A stretch of DNA of 64,000 bases from the NCBI GenBank assembly GCA_910890315.1, contig CAJVGD010000005.1, positions 1,915,260-1,979,259 of the forward strand, written 5' to 3'. This DNA is from Serendipita indica DSM 11827. Lineage: Eukaryota; Basidiomycota; Agaricomycetes; Sebacinales; Serendipitaceae. Made by a program: the position numbers and the translations under genes. Shown in pieces: positions 28,288 through 64,000 of this stretch; position 1 is the first letter of the stretch, and each line of letters starts with the position of its first letter. The notes under the pieces are model-generated. The model had not been told where the DNA came from, made no database searches, and saw only the letters and a list, made by a program, of their open reading frames with translations.

Positions 28288-30390
28288 ATGCCTCGCTATG
28301 CAATTATCGACGACACCGACCCGATGATCACCTATACGGGTAACTGGACTGTCCTCAGCATGTTGGATCCCAATCAGCCAGAGTACAACGGGACGGTCCA
28401 TGCCACCAATGATCCCGACGCAACGATTGAGCTCAATTTCTACGGTAAGAATAGCCTCTGATACCTTTAAGCTCACCATTACTGACTATATCGTTTTCTT
28501 CCGAATAAAAATCTGCGTCCAAACGTCTTGCCCCTTCACGCAACTCCGCCGCTCTCGCCGCTAAACCGTATTCAATCCATGAACGCTCTATTGACCTTGG
28601 CGGCGGGCCTCCAACCTCCACGCCGAATCCGATTTCCCGTGTGTACCACGGGACCACTCTTACAGGCACTGTCGTAAATGCGTACGGTACAATCGACGCT
28701 CCCGATAAAAAAGGGCTCCCTGCCTCGAGATGGACCCTTGACGGCAAGCCTCCAGTCGACTTCCCCCAACCGAATACAATTGGAACATATGATATCAACG
28801 GGACAACATCCCATGTGAGCATCTTTCGTTCTGGAAAGTTTGCAGACGGCGCGCACAAGCTTAAGATAGAAATCAATCCAGCTTCGGGAGGTGAGTTTTC
28901 TCACAATCCATTCCACGGAAACTATCGGGTCATTAACGAGCCCCTTCTTCTTTCCACGGTCGTGAGTAGTCAACGGCAGCCCACCGCCGATGTTCTATCT
29001 GGATTTTTTCGCGGTATTGGCTGGTGATCCCATCTACGTGGAGGATGTAATTTTGGATGCAGGAAACCAGTTCACCGTCGTCGACGGCTCTTGGACAGCG
29101 CAGAATGTGACCGGGGCGTATCTTAATTCGGCGGTAGTAGCGCCTTTAAATGGTGGCTCTACATGGCTGGGGTTCCATGGTAATACTCTTTTTGTCATCC
29201 GCTCGACCTACGCTTACGCTCTTCAAGGGACCGAGATCACGGTATACGGCACACTCAACGGGACCTACAACCCAAATGCGACCTTAGGCTACTTCTCCAT
29301 CGACGAAGGCGTGAAGAAACCTGTCTATCTCCAGAATATAACCCAAGTCGTTCAGACGAACGGCCAACCAATTGGAAACTCTGATTCGATAACAAATCTC
29401 CCGGGAGTAACTATGCTGGATAATGGCTGGATATCGGTTCCGACACCACTTATGCATCAAGCGATTTGGAGAACAAAGGGATTGAAGGATATCGGGGACT
29501 TTCAGCATACTCTCACCATCTCGATAGAGGCGCAGCGCACTTCGACAGCGTCTTCTTCAACTGGGTCGAGTACAGGTACCTCTTCCACCACCAGTAGCTC
29601 GACCTCTACATCCGGTGGCCCGACACCAGCGCCAACTGTATCTCCTTGGCTTTTCGACTACGTCGTCTATGGTCCATCTTCGGCGATTGGAAGCGCGACT
29701 CCCGTGGCTTTCCAACCAAGCGGTGGATCCTCGGTTTCGTCTGCAGCGGAGCGCGGCGCCATAGCCGGCGGTGTCCTGGGCGGACTCGCATTCCTGACCA
29801 TTGTCATTGTCGGCATTCTATTTTTCCTACGACACAAGCGCAGGGAAGAAGAGAAGCGCCGAGCGCCCACAGAGTATACCGTCCCAGCGTCAACGAACCC
29901 CATCTTGGCCGGACTGCGGAAGAGTTTCCACAAGTCTGGAGCAGATAAAACTGCGGAAGCCACGGCTCGAGCCGAAAAGGGTGCTGTCCGGCGAGACGAG
30001 CCTGGTGTTGTCCGACAGGAAGAGCCGCTGGTCCTGGATATCAGTGCAAATGCGACTCCCCAGGAGCACTCTGCAACTGCGCAACAGGGTTCCACGCCAC
30101 TCGTTCGTAGACAGGGAAGCGTCAATGTCGAGACATCGACCACGGTTACCGCGACCAATACGCAAAGTCCGAGCTTGGGAGACGCGACGGCGATGAGCGC
30201 ATACGACTACATTCGTCCAAGTCCGGGTAATCTCTATACGAGAGATGGATACTTTTCCTCTAGCGCCGGTAACGTCAATGCCATTCGGGAGGTTGACGGT
30301 GGTGTACGGCTTGCGTCTGGAGACTCTGATGAATCGGTACATGCTGAGCCTAGCGTACCCATTCTTCCCCCTCAGTACTCACGGTACTGA
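28288..30390 (+). CDS. Single-pass surface protein family, copy A (divergent)
   Basis: First and most divergent tandem copy. It starts MPRYAIIDDTDPMITYTGNW, the family opening, and the first exon ends at the shared intron site after LNFYG. Exon 2 holds TLTGTVVNAYGTIDAP; a further intron leads to FYLDFFAVLAGDPIYVEDVI, the start of the second module. A Ser/Thr-rich linker precedes the helix GAIAGGVLGGLAFLTIVIVG with FFLR and a basic stop-transfer (RHKRREEEKRR). The tail ends IREVDGGVRLASGDSDES, then ILPPQYSRY. There is no cleavable signal peptide. The ectodomain has several N-x-T sequons. Function is unknown; a beta-sandwich carbohydrate- or protein-binding role is plausible but unproven. Confidence 0.8.
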
Positions 30391-30698
30391 GATTTCCATT
30401 GTTTTCCCCTTTAGTTTCCTCTCCCGTCATGCTCTTTCAGGTTGGTCTCGGACAGTTTCGTCATCCTTAGTGTACTCTCAGTCTCTCTTGTCAATAGGCG
30501 TACTCCTTTGCAATGAACCTCACATGATCAGATCATGATTGGGCCCTGTTTGGATAACTCGTCGTCGGTGTCGTTTGTAAGCTCCTCTCAAATGAAGCTA
30601 AAGACAATCAACCGAGCAGTTGTACCCATCTAGTATACATGGTATCCTTGCAACGTAAAAGTACGCATGGATCGGACACGGCGTATCATTGCTGGCTG

Positions 30699-30740
30699 TC
30701 ATAGCTTCAGACTAGTCATAGCTTCATTCAGACTAGTCAT
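30699..30740. repeat. Imperfect two-copy tandem repeat
   Basis: Unit TCATAGCTTCAGACTAG at 30699-30715 is repeated at 30716-30736 with an ATT insertion, followed by TCAT. This looks like a slippage duplication. Confidence 0.7.
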
Positions 30741-30912
30741 CGACATTCTCTTGGCATCATAAGCATTCCACAAGGAGCTTAATGACTGTGCGGCAGAGCG
30801 GGCATTGGCTACGCGTGTAAATTGAAAAGGAGAAATTTACCACCTTCTTTATTACGGACTAAGCCAGATGAATTCTCTATCGCTGTGCAATATGCCGAGT
30901 AAACCGCTCCGA

Positions 30913-30943
30913 CATCGGGCAATGCGTGGGAAGGAGGCGCTAA
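30913..30943 (+). promoter_or_regulatory. Shared upstream module of copy B
   Basis: CATCGG (30913-30918), GCGTGGGA (30924-30931) and GGCGCTAA (30936-30943) in the same order as before copies D and E. It ends 93 bp before the copy B start. Confidence 0.5.
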
Positions 30944-31036
30944 ACCTACTTGTATGTACCGGAGCGGCCTCCATGTTTGCGTCTCAACCTTTGGATTGTC
31001 CCGTCGAGCTTGTAGGGTGCTTGGAACACAGGAGAG

Positions 31037-32548
31037 ATGTCCAAACTGGTTATTATCGATGATAGCCATCCAGCCATTACGTATTCCTCTGGATCCTGGG
31101 CGGGTGCAGTAACAACGACCCACAACGAGTACAACTCTACTCTTCATTCCGCTGTTGCCACCGGAGCGACAATAAAGTACCAGTTTCGGGGTTTGTACTC
31201 TCTTCTCGGCATAGAGGAATACGACTAACTTTGCAAAGGAACTGGTATCTTTGTCTATGGAACCCTCACTCAGCCGGTCACGAATGGTTATCCCGAGTCC
31301 ACCTTTCAAATTGATAACAACCGCGTCTCCAACTGGAATCTGACTGGCATGGTAATCGACAATGCGACTACATACTCTCACGTCGTCCTCTTCAAGTCAG
31401 CACAATACAATTACGGTGACCACACGATCTCCATCAATGTCGGACAGTTTGATGCGACGACAACGGGCCGCTTCAATTTCGACTACTTTGTGGTCACTGG
31501 TGCCACGGAGGAGGATGCTCGCAACGCCGGGGGGCTCGTCATTGTGGATGACAAGGATACCGCTATTGGCTACGAAGGCAACTGGTTTGCAACCGGAAGC
31601 AAGGCAGAATACCAATGGTCCGCCCATCGCTCACCAGCCGCGTCCAATACTGGAACGGCTACATTTTCATTCAATGGAACGAGCGTCTCTGTCTATGCAA
31701 CTCTTGATGGTATCTATCCATCTAACCCAATCGCCAGCTTTGTAGTAGACCCCGGCAGTGCGAACGAAGTCCAAGGAACAGTAGTCATCCCAGGATCGGC
31801 CCCAAAAAAGTATCACAGTCCCATATTATCAGTATCTGGTCTTTCAGAGGGGTCACACACTCTGGTTGTGACTTCTCTCAGTGACCAGACCACCAGTTGG
31901 TGGTTAGACTATATTCTCTATGGCTCCCCTTCTTCCGGTAGTGTCGTCAACTCGAACGGCAGCAACGGAACAGCGACGTCGAGCAATCAAGCCATCGGCC
32001 AAACTCAGAGCAACGGCCCCAGCAAAGCTGCCATTGCCGGAGGGGTGATAGGTGGCGTGGTCGCATGTCTTTTGGTCATTTTCTTCCTCTTCTACTATTT
32101 AAGAAGAAGAGGCAGGAGGAACGATCGAGTGGAAATAATCGATCAATATCGTGGGCCGATAGACGAAAAGCCATTGGCAATGCCGACCGAAGTGGCCACT
32201 TCTCCGCCCACGACTTCAACGGCGGCGATGGTAGCCTCGACACATACTTCAACACCACTTTTGTACATTCCGCCTACAAAGGGACAGAGCCCCCACCCAA
32301 CACCTGTCGAGCGACCAGCAGTCCCGAGACCGAGCATGACCGAAACAAATCACCTCCAAGACTCAAACACTCTTGCATTTACTTCTTCGAGTAATCTGCA
32401 AAGTATCCCCGATAATGCCTCGTCCGCACGAGAAGAGAGCCAACCACCTAGAGTGAGAGAGTTGGATGGCGGTATACGCTTGGAATGGACAGACCAGGAC
32501 GGTGCTCATGACACGCTTCCTCCATCTTACTCCAACTATCAATCGTAA
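31037..32548 (+). CDS. Single-pass surface protein family, copy B
   Basis: Two exons around one short intron (about 31190-31238). Module 1 starts KLVIIDDSHPAITYSSGSW and module 2 starts GGLVIVDDKDTAIGYEGNW. Each module has a VYGT/VYAT strand, a conserved HxxxL segment and ends FDYFVV or LDYILYG, so the ectodomain is an internal duplication. A short Asn/Ser linker precedes the helix AAIAGGVIGGVVACLLVIFF with LFYY and then RRRGRR. The tail carries the family boxes IDQYR, LLYIPPTK, RELDGGIRLEWTD and DTLPPSYSNYQS. There is no signal peptide. It is a close paralog of C, D and E. Confidence 0.85.
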
Positions 32549-33028
32549 TGAATATCCCGGCGATGTTTATCGAGTATTTTGTTCTCTGGCAGGGCCTAAT
32601 TCCTTAGTTATCTGATATGACTGTAATGTACTTGAATTCGTTTTCGAGATGGATACCTTGTGCTGCGTTGTGGCAGCTGGGCTGAGCATACACTCACCGC
32701 TTGGCTTTCATCCCCGTTGACCTCGCTTTTGAATTCGGCCCAACACAGTCTGTAAAGCTCGAGAAATCTTCGGGATCCAGCCTAGTTTCAAGGGGGACGG
32801 ACCTAGTGAAACGGTGGCTCTGTTCGTCACTACTAACGGCCCCTAAGGGTACCTGTCCTGTCTACTCTTCGAGGTATGATGGTACTTGATGCAGAGCCTG
32901 GTACGGGGAGTGCAATTCGGCCGCAGTCGTGACCATATGATCAATGAATAAGTGAATGGATCTCCTACTCGAGCGGACATGCTTTTTCACACCCTCATTA
33001 CAAACTGTATGTACAAACTATGATCCGT

Positions 33029-33077
33029 CATCGGGCCCATTGAGACCGTGAGACGCAGTTGAATAGACGCCGCTTGG
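33029..33077 (+). promoter_or_regulatory. Shared upstream module of copy C (weaker match)
   Basis: CATCGG at 33029-33034, then ACCGTGAGA and GAATAGACGCC, a diverged form of the module before B, D and E. It ends 84 bp before the copy C start. Confidence 0.4.
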
Positions 33078-33161
33078 ACATTAAAACCTGGGGCGGGGAA
33101 CTGTGAGGTATCGACGTTTAGATGCGTAGGGTTTTCGAAGAGCTCCGAGGTCCTCGCAAGG

Positions 33162-34685
33162 ATGCCCATTGCCATCATCGACGACACCAATCCCGCGATC
33201 GTTTACTCTCAAGGGACATGGGCCAGCTCGCCGACAAACGAGTACAACGAGTACATGTCCTCGTTCCATTATCCGACATCTGCAGGTGCGACAATGAAGT
33301 ACCGATTTCGAGGTTCGCTTTCTCAGCTTTACAAGAGTTCACAAGGTCAATGTTGAACAGGGACCAGCATTCAGCTCTTTGGAACTGTTACACAACCCGT
33401 CACAAGGGGCTATCCGAAGGTCACCTACCAGATCGACAATAATCCCATTGAAGAATGGGACCTCTCGCCAGGGCTACAGGACACGGTCAACACGCAGTCT
33501 CATGTAGCTTTCTACAAGTCCAGGGAGTACACGTATGGAGATCACACACTTTCAGTCAATGTTGGAGACTTTGATCCCAGAACAACTGGTCGCCTCAACT
33601 TTGACTTTTTCATCTTCTACGGCGCAACGGAGCAGGACGTGAAGAATGCAGGCGGCCTCATGTTTCGAGATGACAGCGACTATGGTCCTGTCTATGAAGG
33701 CGGATGGTCCTTAGCTCGGGGCATGAAGCAAGAGTTCAAGTCTGGTGCCCACCAAACACCGGCTGGCTCCGAGGGCACGGCAATACTTCCATTCAATGGA
33801 ACGTGTGTCGAGGTCTATGCGACCCTTGATGGTGATTATGGCTCTAAACCCATCGCCAGCTTCGTGGTGGATCGAGGCACGTCGCATGAAGTTGTCCGAA
33901 CCTTTCCTGGACCAGGGCGTGTCACGACGCAGTTCAATACTAGGCTGCTGTCAGTACATGGCCTAGTGGACGGGCCTCATAGCCTGACCGTCACCGCTCT
34001 TGGGAAAGATGTCTCCCCCTGGCGATTAGACTACTTTGTCTATGGGGTCTCTAACGAGACAAATATTGATAATGGAACTGGTGGTGGTGGGGCTTCCGGA
34101 GTATCGAGTTCGGTCGAACTTTCAACCCGGAGTGCAACTCCTCGAGTCGTGACAAGCACTTTTGGAGGAAGAGTATTCACGACGACAGAGTCAGTAAGTC
34201 CTCTTGTTTCTAGCCTCAACTCTCCTGAGGATACTCACGGAGGCGTGAGCTCGAATCAACAAACGGTCGGGGAAACGCAAGCCCATTGGCAGTCAAAGAG
34301 AGCTGTCATTATTGCGGGAGTTCTTGGGGGCATAGCCGCTGGAATTCTTTCTATGTTGCTTCTGTGCTGGTGCATACGAAGGCGTAGAAACACCAAGAGT
34401 ATAGCATCGATTGATCAGTATCGAGACTCCATAAAGGACGATATATCTCGCCGGCCAACAGACATGGGTCCAGTTCCTCCAATTCCGCGCACCAAGGAAC
34501 CAAATACCCTTCCATACCCTCATTGCCACAGTCCGCGTCCCAGCATTGACACGGCTTCGTCTGTAACGCGAACCAACCAACCACCGAGAACAAGAGAAGT
34601 GGATGCGGGAATACGCTTGGAATGGACAGACGAAGAAGGCCCTCACGACACACTTCCACCGTCTTATTCTAACTATCAGTCGTGA
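33162..34685 (+). CDS. Single-pass surface protein family, copy C
   Basis: Two exons. MPIAIIDDTNPAIVYSQGTW opens module 1, and the intron falls at the conserved site after KYRFRG. Module 2 begins GGLMFRDDSDYGPVYEGGW, with the second acidic pair shifted to RDDSD. A linker rich in Ser/Thr leads to the helix VIIAGVLGGIAAGILSMLLL with CWCIRRRRN. The cytosolic tail is the shortest of B-E (about 100 residues): ASIDQYRDSIKDD, then REVDAGIRLEWTDEEG and LPPSYSNYQS; the LYIPP box is missing. No signal peptide. Function unknown. Confidence 0.85.
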
Positions 34686-34809
34686 TAACTTTGGTTCTAA
34701 ATCCGTTTCTTCCGCGGGTGTTGTCTAGCTTTACTTTTTAGGGATTATATACTTGCATTATCAATGAAAATATTTCACTCGGCATCAGAGCAGTCGCTTA
34801 CGACTGAGC

Positions 34810-35064
34810 TTATACCTTGGATTCCGCCCTGTCAATGTCAATTTCGAGTTTCGTCAATTCAGGATCCGAAATAAGCAAAATACCAAAGTAAAAGTCAGCG
34901 AGAGACTCACGGCCCCTCTGCGGCGTTTCGCTATGACACTGGAAAAAGTCGCCACAAGCCGTTATGATGTTGCTCATTTCCCAATACTCTACGTGCTCTT
35001 TGTAGTCCCAGAACGCAGAAACTTGCACTGGGTGGACGTTACAACCTCTAAAGTTGATGATCAT
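34810..35064 (-). CDS. Short hypothetical ORF
   Basis: An 84-codon frame from a true ATG, MIINFRGCNVHPVQVSAFWD and onward, with balanced amino-acid use and no low complexity. No domain was recognised. It lies wholly in the C-D spacer and could be a small gene, an exon or chance. Confidence 0.2.
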   Translation of the reverse strand: MIINFRGCNVHPVQVSAFWDYKEHVEYWEMSNIITACGDFFQCHSETPQRGRESLADFYFGILLISDPELTKLEIDIDRAESKV

Positions 35065-35259
35065 CCTTCAGTCTCCTCGATAGGTGGGCCAACTGCGTAC
35101 ATAAGCAGATAAATGACAGGCTAGTCAACACGGAGTATAGTTATACCGTCTGTCGTCACGGTTAATGGAAAAGAGCTGCGCGTACGGTCAGACGTTGTCG
35201 AGCCGGTGCGTGATCCATGTAGTGTACAGTTATTCAGCAATTGATAGGCAATAAGCCGT

Positions 35260-35305
35260 CATCGGGGAAGCACAAAGCGTGGGACAGCGCTCAACAGGCG
35301 CTAAT
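35260..35305 (+). promoter_or_regulatory. Shared upstream module of copy D
   Basis: CATCGG (35260-35265), GCGTGGGA (35277-35284) and AGGCGCTAAT (35296-35305), ending 86 bp before the copy D start. Confidence 0.5.
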
Positions 35306-35391
35306 CGCTAATTGGCGAGACCTACTAAAGGCTCCTACCGACGATCGCTGTCCATGTCTCTAGGTCCCTTCTAGTAGCTTGGACTCTCAAA

Positions 35392-37040
35392 ATGCCAATC
35401 GTAATCATTGACGATACCAATCCGGCGATCGTCTACTCCCAGCGGTCATGGAGAGGGGTGTCCGGAAACACGAACAACGAATACAAGTCTTCTCTACATT
35501 ACCCCACTGCCGTCGGAGCAACCATCCGATATCAGTTTCGAGGTCCGTTCTCTGCCTTCTATCTCAAGCGCCCTTAAGCCAACGTCAACCAGGAATTGGC
35601 ATACACGTCTACGGGACCGTCACACAGCCAGTTACAAAGGGTTATCCGAATGTCACATACCAGGTGGACAATGATCTCCCCCGAGGTTGGAATCTCTCCC
35701 TGAGTTTACAAGATACGATCAACACCCAATCGCACGTAGTCCTCTTCAAATCTGCAGAATACGACTACGGAGATCATGAAATTACCGTCTATGTTGGGGA
35801 TTTTGATCCTGGAACAACTGGTCGCCTCAACTTCGACTTCCTGCTTGTCATTGGTGCAACTGAGGAGGACGCGAGGAACGCTGGTGGCCTCATTCTCTTG
35901 GACGATAATGAAGCCGGTTCCATCTACGACGCGGGCTGGTCTCTGACCGGTGGATACAAGCAAGAAATGAGGTTTGGAGTGCATCGTTCACCTGCTGGTG
36001 CAACTGCAACGGCTACGCTTCCCTTTACTGGGACGAATATCGAGGTCTACGCGACACTCGATGGAGACTACGGCTCGAACGCGATTGCCAGTTTTGCAGT
36101 TGATCGTGGTACTGCGAATGAGGTTGTCCGAACCTTCAATGGCCCAGGACGCGTCACAAGGCAATTCAATACCAGAATCCTGTCGTTACTAGATCTAGCG
36201 GATGGGTCTCATACTTTAAGTATCACTGCGCTGGGGAATGGCGCGGTCGGTTGGCGCTTAGACTATTTCATCTACGGTACGCCCACCGTCGCATCCTCCC
36301 CTGCAGATAGCGGTGCCGTTGGTGACAATAGTAGCAATGGTGGAGTGTCGGGCTCATCAGCATCGCAGTCTGGGGGTGCAACCTCGCAAACTGCAACAGG
36401 GGTGATACAATCACCTATCCCTGGCTCCGACTCGGTCACTTTGTCCAGGCATATCAACGGGAGTGCGGGTCTAAATGAACAACCCGTTGGGGAATCACTC
36501 GTTCGCGGGCAATCAAGCAAAGCAGCTATTGCTGGTGGAGTGATTGGTGGCATAGCCATTATGGCCCTAGCCATCTTCTTCCTGTGCTTGTATCGACGAA
36601 GACGAAAAAAAGAGAGAGAGACAGCGTCAATAGATCAGTATCGCGTCTCTGTGGACAGTCATGGCCCTCACAATTCCGCAAATGCGACCGCTTCAAGCTC
36701 CACGACACCAAAAAGAGGCGACATTACTCTCCCTGTGCTCTATATTCCTCCCAACAAAGCTCCACTTACCATCGCTGCTCCGGCTCAGCCAAACTTACCC
36801 CGAGCTACGACTCTAGCGACCGTACAGGAGAGTCACGAAGCCGAGAGAAACCGTGTCCAAGGCGGTTCGACCCTCCCGCTCTTTTTTAGCACCGACCAAC
36901 AAGGTCTCCCAGAGGCGACGTTACCTGAAGAGGAACACCAAGGGCGATTGAGAGAGCAAGATGGTGGGATACGCTTGGAATGGGTTGATAATGAGGGCGT
37001 TCACGAGACACTTCCACCATCCTATTCTAACTACTCGTAA
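35392..37040 (+). CDS. Single-pass surface protein family, copy D
   Basis: MPIVIIDDTNPAIVYSQRSW begins module 1; the first exon ends at YQFRG and the intron closes near 35590, resuming with GIGIHVYGTVTQPVTKGYPN. Module 2 is GGLILLDDNEAGSIYDAGW. A Gly/Ser/Thr linker precedes the helix AAIAGGVIGGIAIMALAIFF and then YRRRRKKE. The tail holds ASIDQYRVSVD, LYIPPNKAP, REQDGGIRLEWVDNEG and ETLPPSYSNYS. About 500 residues after splicing. The same region can be read without splicing from another start, but the spliced form matches the paralogs better. No signal peptide. Confidence 0.85.
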
Positions 37041-37383
37041 AATCTTGTCCTTTTCTTCCAATTATTCATGTACATTCGAAGTTGCTTCGTTGCATCATAA
37101 CATCATAGGGTATGCGGCTTCATTTCTTCTGGCGAGTCGGCAGACACGTCTTTGTTATGTACCTGTACATAAAAGCGGACTAACCTTCCGGAATGAATCT
37201 TGGTTTATAGGTGTTCCTTTTTGCAATGTGTATGGACTATGATCCGCCATCGGAGCAGGCGTGGGATGACATTGAATAGGCGCTAATTGGCGGGGCCTTT
37301 AGAGCTCGGAGGGGTGGTCGTTTACTTTCAGCTTTGTTCTACCCCGATAAAATACTCAGAGAACCATTTCACAGACCGGAAGA
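37041..37383. other. Spacer between copies D and E
   Basis: 343 bp, the shortest spacer of the array. It holds the shared promoter module (37248-37287) and no gene. Confidence 0.5.
37248..37287 (+). promoter_or_regulatory. Shared upstream module of copy E
   Basis: CATCGG (37248-37253), GCGTGGGA (37259-37266) and AGGCGCTAAT (37278-37287), ending 96 bp before the copy E start. Confidence 0.5.
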
Positions 37384-39081
37384 ATGTCAAATCTCGCTAT
37401 TATCGACGACACCAACCCGGCAATCCTTTATTCTCCAGGCTCATGGGTTGCAACATCTACCGACACTAATAGAGAGTATAACTCTACTCTGCATTACGCA
37501 ACCTCTCCTGGGGCGACAATCACCTATCAATTTCGAGGTCGGTCGGGCATATCGTCTTTTGATAGCATCGTGAAGCTAACATGCAAAGGAACCGGAATTT
37601 TTGTCTATGGGACCATCACTCAGCCCGTCACAAATGGGTATCCAAAGGCCACCTATCAAATTGACAATGCTCGACCTGTCGTCAATTGGAACACTGCAGG
37701 GATGTTGCAAGATGCCGTGAGCACCCAGTCACACGTCACACTCTTCAAATCTCCACAATATCCATACGGAGACCATACAATCACAATCTCCGTCGACCAA
37801 GTCGATCCGACAACAACTGGTCGGTTTAATTTCGACTTCTTTGTCGTCACGGCCGTGACCGAGGAAGACGCTCGACGGGCGGGAGGACTCATCATTGTAG
37901 ATGATAAGGAACCTGTCATTCAGTATGGTAATGGGTGGACCTATACAGGAGGTAATAAGGCAGAGTATCTGCTCATGGTACACGGCTCTCCAGCTGGTGT
38001 GGATGCGATTGCCTCGTTTCCATTCACTGGTACGAGTGTCTCCGTATATGCCACTCTTGACGGTGATTATGCTTCAAGACCTATTGCCAGCTTTGCGGTG
38101 GATGGTGGCACCCCAGACGAAGTTGTCCGAACCTTCACTGGTCCTGGACGCGTCACAAGGCAGTGTAACACTCAGCTGTTGGGACTCTCTGGTCTAGCTG
38201 ACACTTCCCATACTCTGACTATCACTGCCCTCGGTAGAAACTTGCCGGGTTGGCGGCTAGACTATATCATTTACGGCACACCATTCCCTGCGCATGGCAC
38301 TGGCACTAGTATCGCGAGTGGTGGTAGCATCGGAGGGGAGGGGAGTGGGCTAACAAATTCTCTGGCGTCAGCTACAGGGGGCCTCGAGAGCGTATCAACC
38401 CGGGTAACAACATTCACGTCCAATGGGACAATGTTCATCTCGACGGAAATGGTGACTCAGAATGTCCCAGGCTTCAATTCTCCTTGGGGAACCAGCCAAA
38501 GCACGGGTTTGACTCAGCAAGCTATCGGAGATGTGACCACTGGCGGGAATTCAAAGAGAGCCGTGGTAATTGGAGGAGTAATCGGTGGAATAGCCCTTGG
38601 AATCCTCCTCATCGCCCCCCTCGTCTACTATCTAAGACGACATAGGAAAAATCGGAGAAGGATGCTTATCCACCGGTATCCCAATTGGAGGGTGGATGCA
38701 TATGATAGGGAGACCGACGCGGCACCTTCATTGCCCATGGCACCAACAAAGAGTGATACGGTATCCCTTTCGGCCCTTTGTATCTCTCCAACCAAGGGAA
38801 GCACAATCTCAAATACTATTTCATCGATCCACGGCCCGCTCCCATCGACAATGGTTTCCGCTCCATCACCAAAGGGCAGCGAGGCCGAGACAAATCATTT
38901 TCGGGACTCTTCGACGCTGCTGCTCTCTTCATCCATTAATCTACAAAGCCTTATGGAGACTATATCACCAGCAGAGGAGTCGAGAGTTCGAGAAGTCGAT
39001 GTTGGGATACGGCTGCAATGGACCGATGCTGAAGGCGCTCATGATACTCTCCCTCCCTCCTACTCTAATCTGCAATCATAG
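37384..39081 (+). CDS. Single-pass surface protein family, copy E
   Basis: MSNLAIIDDTNPAILYSPGS opens module 1. An intron at 37538-37588 is exactly 51 nt and stop-free, so spliced and unspliced forms share one frame; the paralogs show that splicing gives QFRGTGIFVYGTITQPVTNG. Module 2 begins GGLIIVDDKEPVIQYGNGW. The linker is long and Ser/Thr/Gly-rich. The helix is AVVIGGVIGGIALGILLIAP with LVYYLRRHRKNRRR. In the tail the IDQYR box is degraded to LIHRYPNWR, and the end reads REVDVGIRLQWTDAEG, then LPPSYSNLQS. No signal peptide. Confidence 0.85.
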   Translation: MSNLAIIDDTNPAILYSPGSWVATSTDTNREYNSTLHYATSPGATITYQFRGRSGISSFDSIVKLTCKGTGIFVYGTITQPVTNGYPKATYQIDNARPVVNWNTAGMLQDAVSTQSHVTLFKSPQYPYGDHTITISVDQVDPTTTGRFNFDFFVVTAVTEEDARRAGGLIIVDDKEPVIQYGNGWTYTGGNKAEYLLMVHGSPAGVDAIASFPFTGTSVSVYATLDGDYASRPIASFAVDGGTPDEVVRTFTGPGRVTRQCNTQLLGLSGLADTSHTLTITALGRNLPGWRLDYIIYGTPFPAHGTGTSIASGGSIGGEGSGLTNSLASATGGLESVSTRVTTFTSNGTMFISTEMVTQNVPGFNSPWGTSQSTGLTQQAIGDVTTGGNSKRAVVIGGVIGGIALGILLIAPLVYYLRRHRKNRRRMLIHRYPNWRVDAYDRETDAAPSLPMAPTKSDTVSLSALCISPTKGSTISNTISSIHGPLPSTMVSAPSPKGSEAETNHFRDSSTLLLSSSINLQSLMETISPAEESRVREVDVGIRLQWTDAEGAHDTLPPSYSNLQS

Positions 39082-39303: not shown

Positions 39304-39734
39304 ATGCCACGCAGTCAAACGGAGATAACAGAATACACGCTGTATGTACGCCTGTCCATTTCCATGTCACCAAAACTCTATAAAGTCGTAGATTGGCCCT
39401 TCAAAAGACAAAATGGGGCCACAGCGAGTGGCCAGAGCACAGGCATGATGGCCGCAAGCGAGGTCGATATCATGCATGTCATGCAGAAATGCAGGCGCTT
39501 GCATTTTTGGACGAGGAAAATGACAGCTCTCATTCAGCTCCGGGCAAGGGACTACATTCTCCAGATGCGACACTCCTCGTGACAAGCAAGCCATGCGAGG
39601 TTTGCGACAATAATCTGAAGAACTTTTGCCAAGGTCGCCACATGATCCTCCGTGTGGTGTACCCGCAATATCATGATAACGAATCCGATGCATACCCATA
39701 CCGGAGGGTACGAATATACGGATACGATCAATAA
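39304..39734 (+). CDS. Stand-alone cytidine-deaminase-like protein
   Basis: Two exons (39304-39341 and 39392-39734; 50-nt intron, donor GTATGT) give 126 residues from MPRSQTEITEYTLLALQKTK. The zinc and proton-relay motif of the deaminase fold is intact: CHAEMQALAFL (H-A-E) and SKPCEVCDNNL (P-C-x-x-C). Known members use His plus two Cys to bind zinc and Glu for proton transfer. The rest does not look like a standard cytidine, tRNA or dCMP deaminase to me, so the substrate is unknown. It sits directly after surface-protein copy E, facing the same way. Small stand-alone deaminases of this size include nucleotide salvage enzymes, RNA or DNA editors and toxin-type domains; no choice is made here. 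Confidence 0.7.
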
Positions 39735-48348: not shown

Positions 48349-51113
48349 ATGTCGGGTCCAATGGGTGTTCCAACTCAGCACGTTTCAACAAAATCATCCT
48401 CCTCCCGACAACGACCAGCGGCCCTCTCCAAAACGCCATCGTCACGCTCAAAAGCAACAGTATCGACTCGAAATAACATTGAAAAGGACATGTCGTCCTT
48501 GAAGCCCTCCAAAAATGGCTTGCTTCAGGCTCCAGACCTCACCGCCGCCTCCCTCGCCACAACCAAGGAAATGACAATAGAAAAGAAGAAAACTACGGAC
48601 CTTTCTATTCCAAATGGGGGTCGTAAGATTGCATCCAACTCGCGCATCAGACGAGATGAACAGAACAAACGGGATATGTATCTTGCATTTGTGAACAACG
48701 CGCTCAAAGCCAAAGTCCTAGTGAGTTTGTTGACGCATCTTTACCGTCTCATGACGTTTACTTTCATTTCCCCTTCATAGGGTAATTCTGGTCCATTTGA
48801 CGAGCTTGTGGCGCAATTTTCCACCACCCAAGCAGATTATTCCCAACTCAAACGTTGGATTCTCGCCCTATCACATGTCGTTTCCCAAATAGATAAGCGA
48901 CATGCAGCGCTGGTAGAAGCCCTCGTCTACATGCCATGGACGACAAACCACGACGAGGCATTTGTAAAGTGCTACATCAGTTTCATTGGAATGCTGGTTA
49001 GTGCGCGCACAGAGTGGCTTTCGATTGTTGTCGCGAGTGCTGCTCGTCGGCTGACCCATCGTGAGTCAAGCACTCGGCACCGAAAAGTCCACTGACAATG
49101 TGACAGATTGCCCATTGAACGCACCCCCCCGAGCCTCACAGTCGACTCCGACTCCGACCCCTGTACCACTCAGGAGTGTGTTCAATCGCGTACACCTTCT
49201 CATTCAGAGCTTGCTCGAATTATTCCCAACTTTGCCGGCAACTCTGCCTACCCATCTCCTCCGTCACTTCCCACACAAGGCTCAGTCTACCACCAGTCTT
49301 ACAGTCTACTGCAAAAACTTGGTCGAGATCATGAGCTATTGTTCTCAGGTGTGAAACTCCTAACATTGTCTCGTCAATATTGATATCTCGCAGCTTGTCG
49401 AGCCAGTCCTGTCGCTCATGATTGAGCGTGCTGTCGGTATAGACGTCGAGATTCAAGTGGAGTTAGAGGAGCTAGAGGAACTCACCGCATCAAACGAATC
49501 GAGTGGAGCCGTTCAGTCAGGAACCGGCCTTCTCGCTGACTTCGATCCATTCGACATTCTAGCGGGCCAAGAATCCGACTCTGACGATGAAGAAGATGGA
49601 GAGGAGGAAGCAATGGCGAAGCTGCAGAATATCGATACCTTTAGCGACGTCTCATCAGAGGCGGATAACGACGAGCGGGATGACGACGTGGTCGATCCAA
49701 AAGAGGCGGAGAAGCGCGCTCTTAGAGTGAAGGAGATGGTCGCCAAGCTAGACGGGATGATGAACATTCTCCTCCGGTGGCTCGAAAAGACGACGCCAGA
49801 GCCATCCGACGGTTCAGCTGCCACCCAGCATCCACACTTCGTTACACTCCTAGCCATCTTCGATCGTATTATCCTGACGACTTTCAAATCACGTTACACC
49901 CAATTTCTCCTCTTTTACATTGTCTCCTCACCCTGGGCCCAGTCAACGCTCGTGTCCAACGAATCAGCACCACTACATACCCAAGTACAGCAGAACCCGC
50001 CTAACGCTCACGCCGACATTTTCCTAGGATCCCTGCTCCACAACGCGCTGGTTCCTCAAACCCCTCCAATTCCCATGCTCACTCGCATTGCTTCCGCCGC
50101 CTATCTTTCCAGCTTTGTCTCACGCGCGCTGTGTATCGGGAAGGATGATTGTAGAAGTGTCGTCATCGTTTGCTGTCAGTGGGCTGATGGTCATATGGAA
50201 GAGCTCGAAGCCCTCATGTCGGGAAGTTCCGCCCCGCTGGATGCGGCGACCGTCAATGCTCACGACGAACTGGGCGTCTTCTACGCGGTGGCTCAAGCAA
50301 TATTTCTCATCTTTTGCTTTCGCTGGCGAGACCTGTTGGAGCAGTCGACAGAGGACGACCCAGACGAGGCTGAGGAGGCACCCAAAAAGTGGATCCACGA
50401 ACTCAATGTCGTACAACGGCTCATCACAAGCCCTCTCAATCCTCTCAAGGTACGCTTCCCTTATTCCTCATATCGGAATCATCTAAATTCCACGACAGAT
50501 CTGCTCCCCCAATGTCGTTCATCAATTTTCACGAGTATCGGAAAAGGCGGGGTTTGCCTACTGCCGATCGATTATTGAAGGCAACAAGCGATCACTGAGT
50601 CTAATGACCTCTCAGCCGGCTCTCGCTCTCGCGCCACTCACGCCTGTGGGTGACTCCTCGAATGGCAACCTAGCCGCGTCTGGAACACCTCTCAATGCAT
50701 GGAACTCATCTGCTGTCCTCTCTGTCATGACAGACCTTCAAGCCTTCTTCCCATTCGACCCGTACAGACTTCCCACTAGCAGCAAATGGTTCGAAGGGAC
50801 CTATCGTGATTGGTCAATGGTCGCAATCGAGGACGACGAGGAAGAAGAAGAGTCTGATGATGAGGAAGAGAATATTCTGGCTGTTGGATCTGCCCCTCGA
50901 GGTGGCGAGGGAGACTCTGATAACCAAGAAGAGGAGAATTCGGAGAGCTCGGACGAAGGCTCGGATGAAGATGCCACTTATGGTGTCGCAATGGAACTTG
51001 GATCCGTTCGGGAACGCGGAAATACGCTAGAAAGACTCCAGGTTGCAGAATCCTTTGGCCAAATGAGTATCAGTCCCGACGTTGGTGGTATCCACCGATC
51101 GTCGCGAGGGTAA
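48349..51113 (+). CDS. RRN3: RNA polymerase I initiation factor Rrn3
   Basis: Rrn3/TIF-IA binds RNA polymerase I and makes it competent to start rRNA transcription. The start MSGPMGVPTQ is followed by a basic, Ser-rich leader and MYLAFVNNALKAK. HEAT-repeat helices follow, including FDELVAQFSTTQADYSQLKR and ALVEALVYMPWTTNHDEAFV. The conserved core is FLGSLLHNALVPQTPPIPML and TRIASAAYLSSFVSRA. After the last intron comes ICSPNVVHQFSRVSEKAGFA. An acidic insert (SDSDDEEDGEEEAM) interrupts the middle, and a second acidic stretch lies near the C-terminus, both usual for Rrn3. At least four short introns. Assignment is firm. Confidence 0.92.
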
Positions 51114-51693: not shown

Positions 51694-53189
51694 ATGGCCT
51701 CGACCAGTCCGCGCGTTCAAGCTTTGGTCCTCGACGCAGGTCCGCTTCTGTCCCTAGCACCGTTAAGAGGGCTCGCAAAAGAATACTATACCGTCCCCCA
51801 AGTCCTAGGAGAACTAAAGGATGAGAAATCGCGGACGCACTTCCAGAATCTAGGTCTCTCTGCAGGTGTAAAAGTTGAAACGAGGGTCCCAGATACTGCT
51901 GCGATAGCTCACGGTGCGTAATTCATTTATAAAAGATTATTTTCACGACTTGAACTTGGCCCGGATGACGCTGACCCGAATGCCACCCATCGATAGTAAC
52001 CCTCGCGGCCAAAAAGTCGGGCGACTACTCAGTACTTTCAACCGCGGATTTATACGTTATTGCGCTTACATATGCTCTTCATCAAGAGTATATGGCTCGT
52101 AACGCAGCGACCAAAGATGTACGTTACCACCCTCATCGTTTTTGGCAACTTTCTAAATTAATCCAGGAAATAGGTACATCAGCAGAGAGCAAAACTCGCG
52201 AGGATGCACTTCGAATATCGGAAGACTGCGACAAAGTGGAAGAGCAGGTTATGAACGAGAAGGAACTAGACGAATTAGCGGCAGAGTTCGAAAGGCTACC
52301 GCTCTCCTCAGAGATCCATGGATCCAAGGAAAGCAAGGTTCCTGCCGCTAAGGACACGACGCACGAAGACGAACCACTCTACGACGACCCCTCTGACGAG
52401 GATGATGGTCAAGGAGAATGGATCACGCCAACCAACGTTGCATTGCACAAGTCACGAGCACTTGATCTGCTACCGGACGCAGCGAATCAAAAATCCAAGA
52501 AGAAACCAGTCGACGCAGAACCAGTGGTTGTGGGCTGCATGACAGCAGATTACGCCATGCAAAATGTTCTGCTGCACATGGGTCTCAACCTCGTTGGCGT
52601 CGAAGGTACGCGGATATCGAGCGTAAAGAGCTGGGTGCTTCGTTGCCATGCCTGCTTCAAGTGAGTCTTTCCTCCGTCTAGGGAAGTATATTGACTTGGG
52701 TGTAGAATTTGTAAAGACTCTTCAAAAAAATTCTGTCCATCCTGTGGAAATCCTTCTCTATTACGCACGACCATTTCTACAACCGCTCCTACGACACCAG
52801 GTGGACAGGCAAAGGTGCAGATCCATCTGAAAAACAACTTCCAATACCGAACCAGAGGCACAAAATACTCTATCCCAATGCCAAAGCCGGGCACCTCTAA
52901 GACAGGCAGCGGTACTGGGATCATCCTACGAGAGGACCAGCAGGAGTATATGAAGGCGGTCGAGAAAGAGGCAAAGAGAGAGAAGCGGGAACATGATAAG
53001 CTCATGAAGACCGTTATGCAAGCCGACTCGCCCAATAGCAACGCGGGGAGCGTTAAAGTGGGGGACTGGAATGACCCAGATTGGATCCCAGATATGCTTG
53101 TTGGTGCTGGTAAGCGACAAGATCTGCACGCATTGCCCACCATTGGTATGGGTCGAAAGAATCCAAACGAGCGACGACGGAGAAAGTAG
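51694..53189 (+). CDS. NOB1: Nob1, 20S pre-rRNA D-site endonuclease
   Basis: PIN-domain nuclease that makes the 3' end of 18S rRNA in late 40S particles. The N-terminus VQALVLDAGPLLSLAPLRGL carries the first catalytic Asp; YTVPQVLGELKDEKSRTHF follows, and after an intron SGDYSVLSTADLYVIALTYA carries the other acidic residues. An acidic middle (YDDPSDEDDGQGEWITPTN) precedes CMTADYAMQNVLLHMGLNLV and the zinc ribbon: WVLRCHACFK, an intron, then FCPSCGNPSLLR. The end GMGRKNPNERRRRK is the typical basic tail. Four short introns. It converges on RTF1 with only 64 bp between stops. Confidence 0.93.
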
Positions 53190-57275: not shown

Positions 57276-57940
57276 ATGCCCATCACAGCGGAGAGCTGGC
57301 AACGAGCGACGCAGAACTGGACGGCGGATGAGATCTCGCGCGGGAGGCGTCTCTTGGACTCGAACGGCCATGTCGTTCCCGCGGCGGTAGCCATGCAAGA
57401 GGAAGATGAAAACATCATCTCCTGCATCCGATACGAGAACGCGTACTATATCACCAGTGCAGATCTCTTCGTGTGCTACCGCTTCCAGACTGGCATCAAC
57501 GTAACCGACAGGAAAATGCGGGCCAACATTCGCAGAGGATGGGATACAAGACCCGCTATCAATTATGGATTCCTTGTCGTCGGTCCTGCGACGCATTCTG
57601 AGCTGCACGTGCGGCTCCAGACGTGGTTTACCAGACGAGACTCGTACAAGCTGTTTGCTTGGGAGAGCTGTGGGGCTGCTTTGGAAGTCATCACAGAGAA
57701 ATTGGTGTGTTGATCCTATTTATATTCTCGTTGGACGGATTGCTGAGCAAGGTTGTGCCCCAGGCGGATCGCGGTCACATTAACATCTCTGCGACGAGCG
57801 AGACGAGAAACTTGTTGACCGAATCGCTGATACGTGCTCCGCAACCATCTCTCATGACACATCCTCCCAATGATCCTCAAGGTGCCTATTTCAGCATGCC
57901 AGCGATATCCGATGCGTCTCAGCAAGTCGTACAATTATGA
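57276..57940 (+). CDS. Unknown protein, possible fungal DNA-binding factor
   Basis: Two exons. MPITAESWQRATQNWTADEI is followed by GHVVPAAVAMQEEDENIISC, YYITSADLFVCYRFQTGINV and DRKMRANIRRGWDTRPAINY, then YKLFAWESCGAALEVITEKL. An intron from about 57703 to 57750 joins the C-terminal VVPQADRGHINISATSETRN, ending VVQL at 57938-57940. The compact, charged, Trp/Arg-rich first part looks like a folded domain with a basic surface, but I do not recognise the family. The second exon is Ser/Pro-rich and likely disordered. Confidence 0.6.
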
Positions 57941-59505
57941 CAAGGCAGGGATCTCTGATTCCGATATACACACTTCTGACGGCCATTTTCTCTACCAGAA
58001 TTAAAATCAGCTTGCAAGTATGGCGTCTGCGCGGACGGTTTCCCAACCCCTCCCTGGTTCCTGACCGTCGGAGGAAGTCTGGACTCCCGCCCAATTCATA
58101 TTACGATATCCTGGATCCATCTAGTCACTCAAAACCCGCGTTGATCCCTCTTGTTCACGTCACGCGCCGCAGGAGTTTGAAATGCTTGTGTGATGGGACC
58201 TCTGCACGCATCCGAACGCATGGTATGCGATGTCCGTACATGGAAAAGCGCCTTTTTTGGCTCGTGCTACATTTGTGGTCCATGGTATTTTCTGGTACCC
58301 TGACCCCATGCATCCAGACGCGGAGCATGCCCAGTCTCTCTGAACACGTTTTCTCAATTTATCTGGGACATAGGCGATAATTTATATTTCTTATTCTCTT
58401 GCACAGATCCCGTTAGTAACCCGATGCATTCGTGGTGCAGCCGCCCAAATCGCGTGAGCCTGAGACGTTCGAATAAAAACGGAGGCAGCCCTCCCCGAAG
58501 AGTACTTCTACTCGTAGAGAAGATGCGATGCTGATAACAACCGTTGATTTGGGGCCAAGCTACGATACACTAGAGCGCTCGTCATTCGATCAGTGGCTAC
58601 ATCCTCTTTGTGAAAGAGGGGTACCCCATTGGAGTTGACTGCGGAGAAAGGCTTGAGTTAACTCGATACAGATAACAGACCCCCTAGGATCCAATAGCAG
58701 GTTTCAGGAACTGGGTAAAACTCAGATTCAACTCCGCTGTGCAAGGAATTGAGTATGAGATATTATGTATCCAAAGCACAGCGTCCTCTGGACGCCATTT
58801 TTAAATATTCACCTTGATTTTAGGCGCAACCAAAGTTGTTTCAGTGGCCCGGGGCGCAGAGCATTGGTAATTGTTCGGCTATCTAAGCGCAAGGTGTATC
58901 ACCTCAATATTTCTGCCCTTTTACCGCACGTGCCTCAGCAGAGTTGAGACGGTGTTTGCCACGACGACCTTTTTCTCGGGTCCGAAGCGAACTGTCACAA
59001 AGATCTACATTTCTCACGCCACGTCAGGAACCGACTTGCGGCTCAGTTTGGCGGATGTCATCCATTCGCTCTATGGCCCCCGAGGGGATGCCAAAACACA
59101 TTGGCATCTGAGGATAACCGCGATTTTAGAGTTGTTTTAGATATTTCCATCGGCACTGACATCAGCGCGAGCCCCTAGTCCGTTCCGCCAAATAAATACG
59201 AAAGACGAAGATTTAGTCATATTGCATTACGCCCAGAAGACGAAATTCCTGCTGGACGAAGCTGATGATTTGTCGACGGCCGAGCTCTCGAAATAGCGAT
59301 TAGCCTCCGGCAACATTAGCCTTCGACAACGGCTTCCTCGGCCTCGGTATTCGAAATCATCTCCGGCCTCGTATATCATTGGACGACTCATTGTGGTAGT
59401 ACTACATAAGATCGTACTCGAATATGCACAGTTCGTTCTCTCCTCCTCCCCTTTCTCGACGCGACCTGGAGTTCCTCTCCGACGTACCTCTTACTCTGCG
59501 ACAAA
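57941..59505. other. 1.6 kb intergenic, nothing recognised
   Basis: Several short open frames without domains. A TATA-like TTTTTAAATATT lies at 58797-58808. No transposase, LTR or repeat was recognised. Confidence 0.4.
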
Positions 59506-60964
59506 ATGTCATTTGCACTACAACAATTCTTCAAGGATTTCTACAATATTCGAGTTTCAAGTTATACCTGTGGCGCGGGAATGGTAGTGCTCCTTTACGA
59601 TTTTGTCCTTACTTTTCCGGAGGTACGGCCATGCATACCTCTCTTCTTAACTAGTCAAATTCAGATGCTCCAGGAGATCAAGTACATTTGGAGCGGCAAG
59701 CAGACATTCAATGCAGTGAAACTCATGTTTCTCTGGGTACGTCCCATTGGGGCCGGGAGTGAGGTAGAATTGAGTTTATACGTAGAATCGATACCTCGTC
59801 GTCCCATGGATTGTCTTCTCGAATTTTCGTGAGTACTTTGGTAACCTGGTAATGGCTCTCAATCGCGCTTATAGATATAGCTGCGATTAGGGGACCGCTA
59901 ACCGACACGGTACGCTGACATGCCTCGTCAAAGACGATGTTTCTGATGATTCTGTAGTTGTGAGTGCAAAGTGCGTAGTGTGACGGGTATACTTATGCGA
60001 CGAAGCTGCCGAATCTTCATACCTGCCAATGCTTTGATACAGGGCATATCTATTATCGTCGGAATTCAGTTAGTCAGTTCAATGTCGAGTTTTAATCATG
60101 GCGACTTACATATCCTAGCTGGCCCTTCGAGTACTTGCACTTTACAGGAACAACATCCGGGTCCGTTTGGCACTATATGCCTACCTAGGGGTATGCCATA
60201 GCATACTTTTTGTTCTTGTTGGAATCTCTATGTCACGTTTCGTGCGTACGTGGCCCGTTTGTTGAGTAGTCGACGGCACTTACTGTTGGCAGCGTATCTC
60301 AAATATCTTGATTCAAACAGTCATGCTACACCATCCCGGATCCTCTGATCAAGGTCATTTACATCCCACCTGTACGTCTTGATTACCTGAGCCAGTCCCG
60401 GAAATTAACTAGATCCTATAGCTGGCAGCTGAAACAGGTATCATGCTTTTACAGATATTTAACCACTTTCAAAGAAGGAAGGAGCATAATCTGCTCAGAA
60501 CACGGCTGATGTCAACCTTGTTCCGCGATGGATACCTCTGGTACATAACTGTACTCAGTGTCCGATTGTTATGCATCCTAGTGGTATGGTCTCTATAACT
60601 TTCAAAGGAGAAGACGCTGAAGAGAGTATAGTACGAGTTTGCACCGCTCAGCCTGTGGTTCGTTGGCAACCAACTTGAGTGGCCACTCTCGACGGCGCTC
60701 ATCTCCCGTTTCTTCCTTCAGCTCCGTGGTGCAATTGATGAGGAGCAAGCCATGTTCCTGCCAGGACCTGATACCGCAGGCTCGTTGGGATTCGTACGTG
60801 GCAAACATCAACACTCCTCACCGGGTGTCGACTCGGTACCAGCTCGCGCATACCCCACATTCAACCCAAATCAGCGAGAGGTGTATATCGATGAGTCTCC
60901 ATTACCGCTACAGGAGCTCAGGCGGATGAGAATTGGGAATACGCAGCACCTCGCCAAGGTGTAG
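59506..60964 (+). CDS. DUF6533-type multi-pass membrane protein
   Basis: MSFALQQFFKDFYNIRVSSY is followed by AGMVVLLYDFVLTFPE and, after an intron, IKYIWSGKQTFNAVKLMFLW. The pattern LLYDxxLTxxxE...IWxGK...K.xFLW is the N-terminal DUF6533 domain found in many agaricomycete seven-helix proteins of unknown role. Further exons (not all fixed) give more hydrophobic segments and SLWFVGNQLEWPLSTAL. The soluble tail is LPGPDTAGSLGFVRGKHQHS and NPNQREVYIDESPLPLQEL, ending at 60964. It lies immediately before surface-protein copy F. Confidence 0.65.
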
Positions 60965-61331
60965 GCCGGAGATTGGATGCCTTTCTCACAAGACATATGT
61001 CCAAGTTTTGTAACATAGATGCCGTATAACATTCTCTTGAACTCATCGGGGTCACAGGTGGAATCAACGCCTTTTTCTGACATCCCACACCGCATTCCCT
61101 GCGATGAATACCCGCACCCGAAACTCTGTACCAGGGAACGACAAGTAAGCTCATGAAGCCGCCGCCGAGACAGAGAAGTCAGGGGCGGCTACAAGAGAAC
61201 GGCATCCAGATTCATCTCGGGATAAATACTCACTGATCCAGTCTTTGCCGAATACCGCAGTAATCCCTCTTGGGCACAGACACTGTACAGACTTTGTACG
61301 AGACTATATTAGAGGGTAGAGCATTCAGAAC
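60965..61331. other. Spacer before copy F
   Basis: 367 bp with the presumed copy F promoter. A CATCGGGG-plus-GGTGGAA block at 61048-61066 only weakly recalls the B-E module. No gene recognised. Confidence 0.35.
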
Positions 61332-63057
61332 ATGGGCAAGAAGGTACTCGTAGACGACACGGACGAGAGGATCCAATACAATGGTATTGGGTGGAAGCCG
61401 TTGTTCAGCCCGTTCGGCGACACAACAAACGAGTACAATCAAACGTTGCATTACAGCCGTAATCCAGGGTCAACAATGACCTATACGTTCAATGGTGTGT
61501 ATTCTGTGATACTGTCTGATGTTTAGTAACGACGGTATTCTTGTCAAACAGGAACTCGAATTACAGTGCTCGGTACATTCGTCTCGCCTTTGACTTTGCC
61601 CGCATCAACGTACAGTATTGACGAAGGGACCCCCTCTTTCATAAATTCCACCGGTGATATGCCGCATTTTGGGTCAACGACCAAGTGGCCCCTTGCTCAT
61701 GTCCCTTTCTACACCTCGCCGATCCTCCCTCACGGCCAGCACACTCTCCACGTCAGTGTAGATGTCGCAGTCAACCAAACATATTTTTTCGACTATCTTA
61801 TCATCGAGGTAGATGACGACGCGGCCAACATGGGAGCAGTGGCGGTAGACGACCGGGACCCAGCCGTCGTCTATACAGGGCTCTGGGACCATTCGACGCC
61901 ATGGCTCCTCGAGTATGATACGACATCATCGCGCGCCAACGTCGGTCAGAACCTGACCGCATCCTATTCGTTCATCGGCAGCGCGATTGCAGTCTACGGG
62001 ACGATTCAGGGTGACTACGGCCCCTTGCCCATTATGAGCTGCACACTAGACCCATCTCGAGAACCCGCTTCTAGCGATGCCCAAGTCTTCACCCGCACCG
62101 ATGTCTTTTCGGTCTCTGGTTCTGTCACCCAACACAAACACCATCGACTCTGTTTATTCGAAGATCTGCAAGACATACCAGGGAAAAACAGAGGCGAACA
62201 CGAAATAGTCCTTTCATCGCTTCCTGAGGCATTGAGCCCATGGCGCTTTGACAACTTCGTGTACCTCCCCGTAGGGAGCACATTGCGTTTCAACTCCAGT
62301 GCGTCAAACCCCGTAGTCACAGGCAATAGTATGGAGGTGACATTTGGACCATTGACCACAAACTCGACACATCAGCCCCAGAGTGAGAAGACTAATACAC
62401 CGTCAATCATTGCGGGTGTCGTCGTCGGAATAGCTATTATCGCTCTGCTAGGTACCATTGTTCTTTGGTGCCGATGGAAGAAGAGGAGGGTGCTTACGCA
62501 TGGCAAGGGGAATGGAAAACTGAACGGCTTAGGCCATTATGCACCGTACGTGATCCACTATGTTCCACAGTAGCATTCAGTGACCACGTGTGATTAACAG
62601 CGTCGTTAAATTGAGACAAGGAGGGGATAGGATGGACGCCGCTGTTGTTCTCCCGCTAAAATATCGCAATGGGCACCATGATAGCCAAGGACAAACTGGG
62701 ACTGTGGACGGAGTCAGAAGCACACTCTTGTCATCTTCCAGCATCCATAATAGTCCCTCAGCAGATTCAGCTGGCCCTACACTACGTACATCACATATAA
62801 CTCGGTTGCATATTGATACTCTCGAGGGGCCGGCCAGTTCTCATCCGACATCTGCATCCGGGGAACAGGAAGAAAGTAGAAGAGCCCCTAGATTCACAGG
62901 CTCAATTATACAACGCACCAGGTATTCAGTTTCTTCCTCTGCTGCCGGGCAGGAGTGGATTCAAGAAGTTGATGGAGGTGTGCGGCTGGAGCCATGTGAC
63001 GAAGATGATGATCCCAGACCAGTACTACTACCTCCAAGATACTCTGATTATCGTTAG
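61332..63057 (+). CDS. Single-pass surface protein family, copy F
   Basis: A diverged branch of the family. MGKKVLVDDTDERIQYNGIG opens module 1 and TMTYTFN ends exon 1 at the conserved intron site; exon 2 resumes GTRITVLGTFVSPLTLPAST. Module 2 is MGAVAVDDRDPAVVYTGLW. The helix is SIIAGVVVGIAIIALLGTIV with LWCRWKKRR. An intron from about 62539 joins GHYAP to VVKLRQGGDRMDAAVVLPLK; the tail ends EVDGGVRLEPCDEDDD, then LLPPRYSDYR. The tail shares the VDGG[VI]RL and PPxYSxY boxes with copies A-E. No signal peptide. Copies F and G resemble each other more than A-E. Confidence 0.82.
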
Positions 63058-63374
63058 TTGTAGAAGGTGACATCAGCGGAGTGCTATTGAACCTTGGCGT
63101 TCCCACACTGCATTTGCTGTTCAATGTCGAACTCTGGAGAAGTGAGAAAGAACTCAAATAACTGAACAAGAGGGTTGACTCTGAGATTTCAGGCACAGTT
63201 TACTCACTGGTCTCCCTCAAACAGCCGGCATCGGATATAGAAGCGGCACCAAGCGACGGTAATATTGGAGTCCAGGATTCAGTAAGCGATGGACAAAAGA
63301 AGGGTCTTGTCTGGAGCTCTCTCACGACGTCCAATCCCTAGCATCCCTGTCGGGACTGACAGCAGGTTCGTCTG
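63058..63374. other. Spacer between copies F and G
   Basis: 317 bp, no gene recognised; it should hold the copy G promoter. Confidence 0.4.
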
Positions 63375-64000
63375 ATGGGCAGAACAGTGTTGATAGACGA
63401 TACAGACGATCGAATCGTATACGGGGGAGTAGGGTGGAAAATTTTGGGACACACATTCAGTGCTACGTCCAACGAATACAACAGGACGATGCATTACGGC
63501 CCGAGCCCTGGCCTAACAATGTCATATACTTTTAACGGTACACTTGTTCGTAGAAACCAATCTCTCTTAGTTAACCTTTCTGTCCAGGAACCCGGATTAC
63601 GCTCTACGGGACGCTCCTGTCCCCTACCAATCTACCGGCGTCGACATACAGCATCGACGACCAACCTCGTATGCCCATCAATGCTACGGGAGATATGCCG
63701 CACATCTCCTCGTCGGTGAAGGGACCCCTCTCACATGTACCTTTCTACACTTCACCCGTCCTCCCGCATGGCCAGCATACACTTCTCGTTAACGTCAACG
63801 TCGAATCCGATCATACATTCTTCTTCGACTATCTTGCCGTCGAGACTGATGACTCCATCTTTGGCTCTATTCCCCAAGATGGAGCAGTTGTAGTCGACGA
63901 CCGAGATCCATCTATCGTGTTCACTGGCGCATGGAATGATACCTCGACACTGCTCCTAGAGTACAACGGTACATCGACTCGAGCGCCATGGCCAGATGAC
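63375..64000 (+). CDS. Single-pass surface protein family, copy G (5' part, cut by window end)
   Basis: MGRTVLIDDTDDRIVYGGVG starts module 1, with NEYNRTMHYGPSPGLTMSYT and FN before the intron (about 63537-63587). Exon 2 reads GTRITLYGTLLSPTNLPAST, then SIDDQ, VPFYTSPVLPHGQHTLLVNV and the second module opening DGAVVVDDRDPSIVFTGAW. It matches copy F closely along its length. Helix and tail lie beyond the window. Confidence 0.82.

Follow-up and report, generated by a model that had tools for sequence, protein, structure and literature searches.

In a 64,000-nucleotide stretch of the Serendipita indica DSM 11827 genome (hereafter the window; contig CAJVGD010000005.1, positions 1,915,260 to 1,979,259), we found seven copies, A to G, of a gene family whose products we read as single-pass plasma-membrane proteins with a glycan-binding ectodomain, controlled through a PPxY motif and Rsp5, and grown by tandem duplication; we put the probability of this reading at about one half. 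The N-terminal half would consist of two jelly rolls of CE2_N / CBM35 type, carried outside the cell by a stalk that is rich in Ser/Thr and probably O-glycosylated. As adhesin or sensor, these modules would bind glycans, whether those in the wall of the fungus itself or those on the surfaces of plants or microbes. A single helix would span the membrane with its positive flank inside, and a disordered cytosolic tail would recruit a Rsp5/Nedd4-type ubiquitin ligase by the PPxY at its end, whereupon endocytosis and vacuolar turnover would set surface levels. The module would already have been duplicated in the gene from which the cluster grew by local tandem duplication. The gene set, the doubling of the module, the fold class, the helix with its uneven charge and the conservation of PPxY come out of the computation; the outward N-terminus without a signal peptide, the O-glycosylation, the glycan binding and the control by Rsp5 belong to our interpretation. 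S. indica is a root-symbiotic agaricomycete, its lifestyle being described in PMC3192844.

Duplicated modules and their fold

An initial annotation of the window had placed copies A to E in tandem on one strand, with F and G in a second cluster about 22 kb away, and tblastn within the window, together with a reading of the splice sites, recovered all seven at these places, on the + strand. The two modules that it described for each copy were seen in A to F, the second module of copy G lying only partly within the window. Eight residues (D, D, W, F, G, D, H and D) are invariant in the modules. The intron in module 1 lies, as had been claimed, at the same place in all seven copies (phase 1, F-x-G|T); an intron at the equivalent point was also found in module 2 of copy A (29180-29227) and, with the frames judged by eye, in module 2 of J, a relative on contig C27. 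This shared intron point indicates that the introns mark an internal duplication and that the second intron was lost in B to F. Profiles of module 1 and module 2, built from 13 proteins each, aligned with each other in hhalign at 99.8% (E 3.4e-28, a pairwise value without correction for database size), ruling out a chance repeat. When 30 modules were placed in a tree, those in first position (96/94) and those in second position (93/89) grouped apart, with B to E clustering together within each group; the exception was Lyophyllum P0022, whose own two modules paired together (91/83, on a branch that was not starred). Such a grouping indicates that the duplication predates the Serendipita gene copies, and there may have been more than one such event. 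The Ser/Thr linker proposed earlier is present, though it is short in copy B (~36 residues), and in copy A a Ser/Thr stretch breaks into module 2 itself.

The initial annotation had matched the module to no named domain and had suggested structure prediction and a fold search. As far as Pfam goes its statement stands, since A, B and E, the three copies scanned whole, score no family over the modules, but fold and profile evidence does assign them to a group. The structure of copy D was predicted as a whole chain. The top Foldseek rows (xanthan lyase, tandem CBM22, Cry proteins and reelin) reached whole-chain TM-scores, by query length, of at most 0.22 among the rows listed, and so per-domain rows were used instead; with the profile evidence, these place the predicted modules in the CE2_N / CBM35-type beta-sandwich group, having both the jelly-roll fold of the CE2 N-terminal domain and the beta-sandwich fold of CBM35 and CBM6. 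The per-domain matches rule out a new fold, and the predicted class is a known one. One relative, P0022, exceeds the CE2_N cut-off by sequence (29.1 versus 27.9 bits).

CE2_N (PF17996) is the jelly roll with which family 2 carbohydrate esterases begin at their N-terminus (2waa, 2wab, 3u37). Unlike these proteins, the S. indica copies have no esterase domain (none was found by Pfam in A, B and E, and the remainder of copy D is the transmembrane helix and a low-confidence tail), the scanned copies miss the CE2_N model, with no match at E <= 1, and a membrane anchor carries the modules in tandem. CBM35, CBM6 and CBM61 are alike in fold, without a sequence match to the modules in the Pfam and profile scans; carbohydrate-binding modules usually belong to secreted enzymes. 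Matches to TM_ErbB1, Syndecan and similar Pfam families, and to ErbB, EGFR and amyloid precursor in the PDB, all fell on the transmembrane helix and were rejected as matches of transmembrane composition, TM_ErbB1 even exceeding its cut-off in the relative P0033 (31.8 versus 27.1 bits).

Membrane topology and the cytosolic tail

Neither a signal peptide nor a hydrophobic leader was seen in A to F. The first D-D lies at residues 7-9 from the start Met in all seven copies, each of which has an in-frame stop upstream of its ATG, and the first beta-strand of the copy D model begins at residue 3. In the wider comparison, 20 of 42 rows begin with M and have their first DD or DN within 15 residues (P0009, a mid-module match, was left out of the 20, and several of the 42 rows are N-terminally incomplete). 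These starts would also fit leaderless proteins that are not at the surface, their modules facing the cytosol or sitting in an internal membrane and their tail reaching into the lumen, but we hold such an arrangement to be improbable. A single transmembrane helix is predicted in the copy D model, and in A to F the positive charges lie C-terminal to it, with one or two Lys/Arg in the 15 residues before the helix and five to seven just after it, giving the positive flank expected inside. Furthermore, PPxY is a cytosolic ligand; N-glycosylation sequons, counted in 18 chosen proteins, are in excess N-terminal of the helix (99 observed versus 69.7 expected in the ectodomain, 18 versus 19.1 in the tail); and P0027 and Mycena P0030, which have the same kind of module, carry a strong leader-like stretch. 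The helix, the charge asymmetry, the sequon excess and the relatives with a leader-like stretch support the single-pass surface protein with a duplicated ectodomain that had been proposed at the outset, and for its topology we infer, as the likeliest arrangement, an outward N-terminus and an internal signal-anchor.

PPxY was found in the cytosolic tail of all of A to F (copy A ends in LPPQYSRY and copy F in LLPPRYSDYR) and within the last 25 residues in 32 of the 39 rows taken as fungal, many of which are close relatives and so not independent, whereas in 500 tail shuffles it appeared in at most three of the 39. The motif binds WW domains of Rsp5/Nedd4-type ligases, and control of these proteins by Rsp5 would be consistent with its conservation. 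Profile matches in the same genome place WW next to HECT at C44:182557-184372, C44:204627-206521 and C1:1702428-1704175, as would be expected of such ligases. One small fungal genome may accordingly hold three Rsp5/Nedd4-type ligases, an observation in its own right. According to PMC3517545, regulation of fungal surface proteins by ubiquitination is widespread, and for diverse transporters the ligase that is recruited is Rsp5.

Several points weigh against a glycan-binding, Rsp5-controlled surface family. With regard to topology, the export of some 300-380 N-terminal residues without a signal peptide is unusual, a leader exon may lie further upstream, and the sequon excess is not uniform (two observed versus 4.1 expected in copy E, and three versus 3.1 in copy C). 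With regard to the modules, the Pfam scan of A, B and E gave nothing over cut-off, the listed matches being marginal or sub-cut-off hits on or near the transmembrane helix; a CE2_N search of the S. indica genome exon by exon gave a single subthreshold match (L033), outside the window; and of 19 single modules taken from the window and the relatives, only two give a CE2_N match at E <= 1. Many proteins share this fold yet bind no sugar, and the residues that are invariant in the modules may be structural rather than ligand-binding. As for the tail, the non-independence of the 39 rows tells here too, seven of them lack PPxY (P0008, labelled partial, P0010, P0022, P0032, P0035, P0036 and P0038), and its partner can be a WW protein other than Rsp5.

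Divergence of the copies and genomic setting

The initial annotation had further inferred a role in recognition; on that view the copies would be receptors for allorecognition or for recognising a host, diversified under positive selection. The tandem copies B to E are indeed 46-70% identical per module and form their own groups in the module tree, their most variable ten-residue blocks lie at 21-30, 81-90, 151-180 and 261-270 (copy D numbering), and loops hold slightly more residue types per column than strands (1.99 versus 1.85). Invariant columns, however, are as frequent in loops (41%) as in strands (40%), and a dN/dS comparison by region (nonsynonymous to synonymous rates), of the kind that had been suggested, gave 0.09-0.49 among B to E in 20 of 24 region pairs, so that every finite value was below 0.5; dS was infinite in the other four pairs and above 1, and hence saturated, in the rest, making these values rough. 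Copy C and P0004 differ at one of 447 aligned residues, and P0005 and P0006 (Serendipita sp. 400 and 405), the sole cross-strain pair compared, differ at 31 of 603 positions, only eight of them within the first ~310 columns, the ectodomain half. None of the data at hand points to a fast-evolving ectodomain; they leave the inference of diversified recognition unsupported, and we give it little credence.

The window forms the last part of contig C5, in a genome of 24.7 Mb. All gene models are on the + strand. Copy A (28288..30390; 584 aa) has exons at 28288-28444, 28666-28890, 28970-29179 and 29228-30390, while copies B to E have two exons each: 31037-31190 and 31239-32548 in B (31037..32548; 487 aa), 33162-33312 and 33361-34685 in C (33162..34685; 491 aa), 35392-35542 and 35593-37040 in D (35392..37040; 532 aa), and 37384-37537 and 37589-39081 in E (37384..39081; 548 aa). 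Two public proteins of the same strain agree with these models, CCA70239.1 showing no differences from copy D across 532 aligned residues and CCA70237.1 none from copy B across 487, with extra upstream residues in the latter public model. In the second cluster, copy F (61332..63057; 537 aa) has exons at 61332-61494, 61552-62545 and 62601-63057, its final intron being a pick from five candidates, and copy G (63375..64000; exons 63375-63537 and 63588-64000) is partial, since the contig stops at 64000 inside its module 2. This cluster may therefore hold further copies past the contig end.

The pattern CCGNCATCGGR occurs on the + strand before copies B (30909..30919, -128 from the ATG), C (33025..33035, -137), D (35256..35266, -136), E (37244..37254, -140) and G (63225..63235, -150), making it a possible shared promoter element. 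These five occurrences in the window compare with 0.28 expected, an optimistic estimate of chance given that the motif was picked post hoc, and genome-wide there are 91 matches versus 57 for the reversed pattern. Within 400 bases upstream, A, F, H and J match at best 7-8 of 10 places, and I matches 9 of 10 at -110 (H, I and J being copies outside the window, described below). A 14-base upstream motif was dropped, its frequency being no higher than chance.

Directly after copy E lies a deaminase-like frame (39393-39734, +) that matches Pfam SsdA_C (single-strand DNA deaminase toxin A, C-terminal) at 31.4 bits against a cut-off of 27, and other deaminase families below cut-off. Between the two clusters are RRN3 (49364-51110, +) and a PIN-domain frame (51975-52661, +) with a weak match to the NOB1 Zn-ribbon.

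Spread of the family and relation to known receptors

The count of seven members is right for the window, but the family is larger. Contig C27 carries three further close copies, H, I and J, at about 2.1-3.7 kb and 19.5-23.0 kb, and of ten distant loci read in the same genome, three (L041, L049 and L062) have module-like stretches, that of L049, on C1, behind a leader-like hydrophobic stretch. L042 and L046 showed a transmembrane helix and tail only, and the other five loci, including L033 with its CE2_N match, gave nothing after filtering; many distant matches span the transmembrane region alone, and the counts for this genome are lower bounds. Protein searches found relatives in Serendipita, Cantharellus, Lyophyllum, Infundibulicybe, Trametes, Crepidotus, Pholiota, Mycena, Laccaria, Collybiopsis, Cerioporus and Cubamyces, with E from 7e-13 to 1e-3 outside Serendipita and short matches (BLAST cover 5-10%) for P0010, P0024, P0034 and P0037. 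Each search scored about 8,000 candidates, so this spread, too, is a lower bound. These homologues likewise have IDD-type modules, one transmembrane helix and mostly a PPxY near the end; they differ in having one or two modules and, in some, leader-like stretches, the tandem two-module expansion being that of S. indica. The family is thus an uncharacterised one in several Agaricomycete groups, its members currently named only hypothetical or transmembrane proteins, and no description of it was found in the open-access literature searched, an absence that is weak evidence.

The breadth of this distribution bears on another explanation, in which the modules would grip glucan or mannan of the fungus itself and the tail would report stress in the wall, as in the Wsc and Mid2 wall sensors, with no recognition of others. 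These sensors share with the S. indica copies a glycan-binding-type head, a Ser/Thr stalk, one transmembrane helix and a charged tail; a general function is favoured by the occurrence of relatives in Trametes, Pholiota and Mycena, which mostly decay wood or litter, and P0033 scores to Mid2 below the cut-off (17.4 versus 23.2 bits). Yet A, B and E have no WSC or Mid2 match at E <= 1, Wsc/Mid2 sensors have signal peptides, and the local expansion in S. indica suggests a role beyond housekeeping; we consider this explanation doubtful, if less so than the two alternatives above. The LysM-transmembrane proteins of P. indica, as described in PMC3192844, also join a glycan-binding-type head to one helix, likewise without a predicted signal peptide. 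Both groups have other ectodomain domains, sharing no Pfam domain with A, B or E. What is new is that tandem jelly rolls without a leader are joined to a tail bearing PPxY, the fold class being already known.

Little is known of the single-pass receptors that mushroom-forming fungi possess. It is a tentative and rather unlikely possibility that the family represents a large undescribed Agaricomycete class of leaderless receptors, their carbohydrate-binding-type modules brought outside, N-terminus first, by the transmembrane segment alone, recycled through PPxY and Rsp5 and locally amplified in a root endophyte for the reading of plant or fungal glycans. The leaderless arrangement, which recurs in several genera, would be unusual in that a long N-terminal domain would be exported without a signal peptide. 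If surface glycan binding and turnover by Rsp5 hold true, a family of hypothetical proteins would gain a role, open to experiment, in sensing the wall, in adhesion or in colonising roots.

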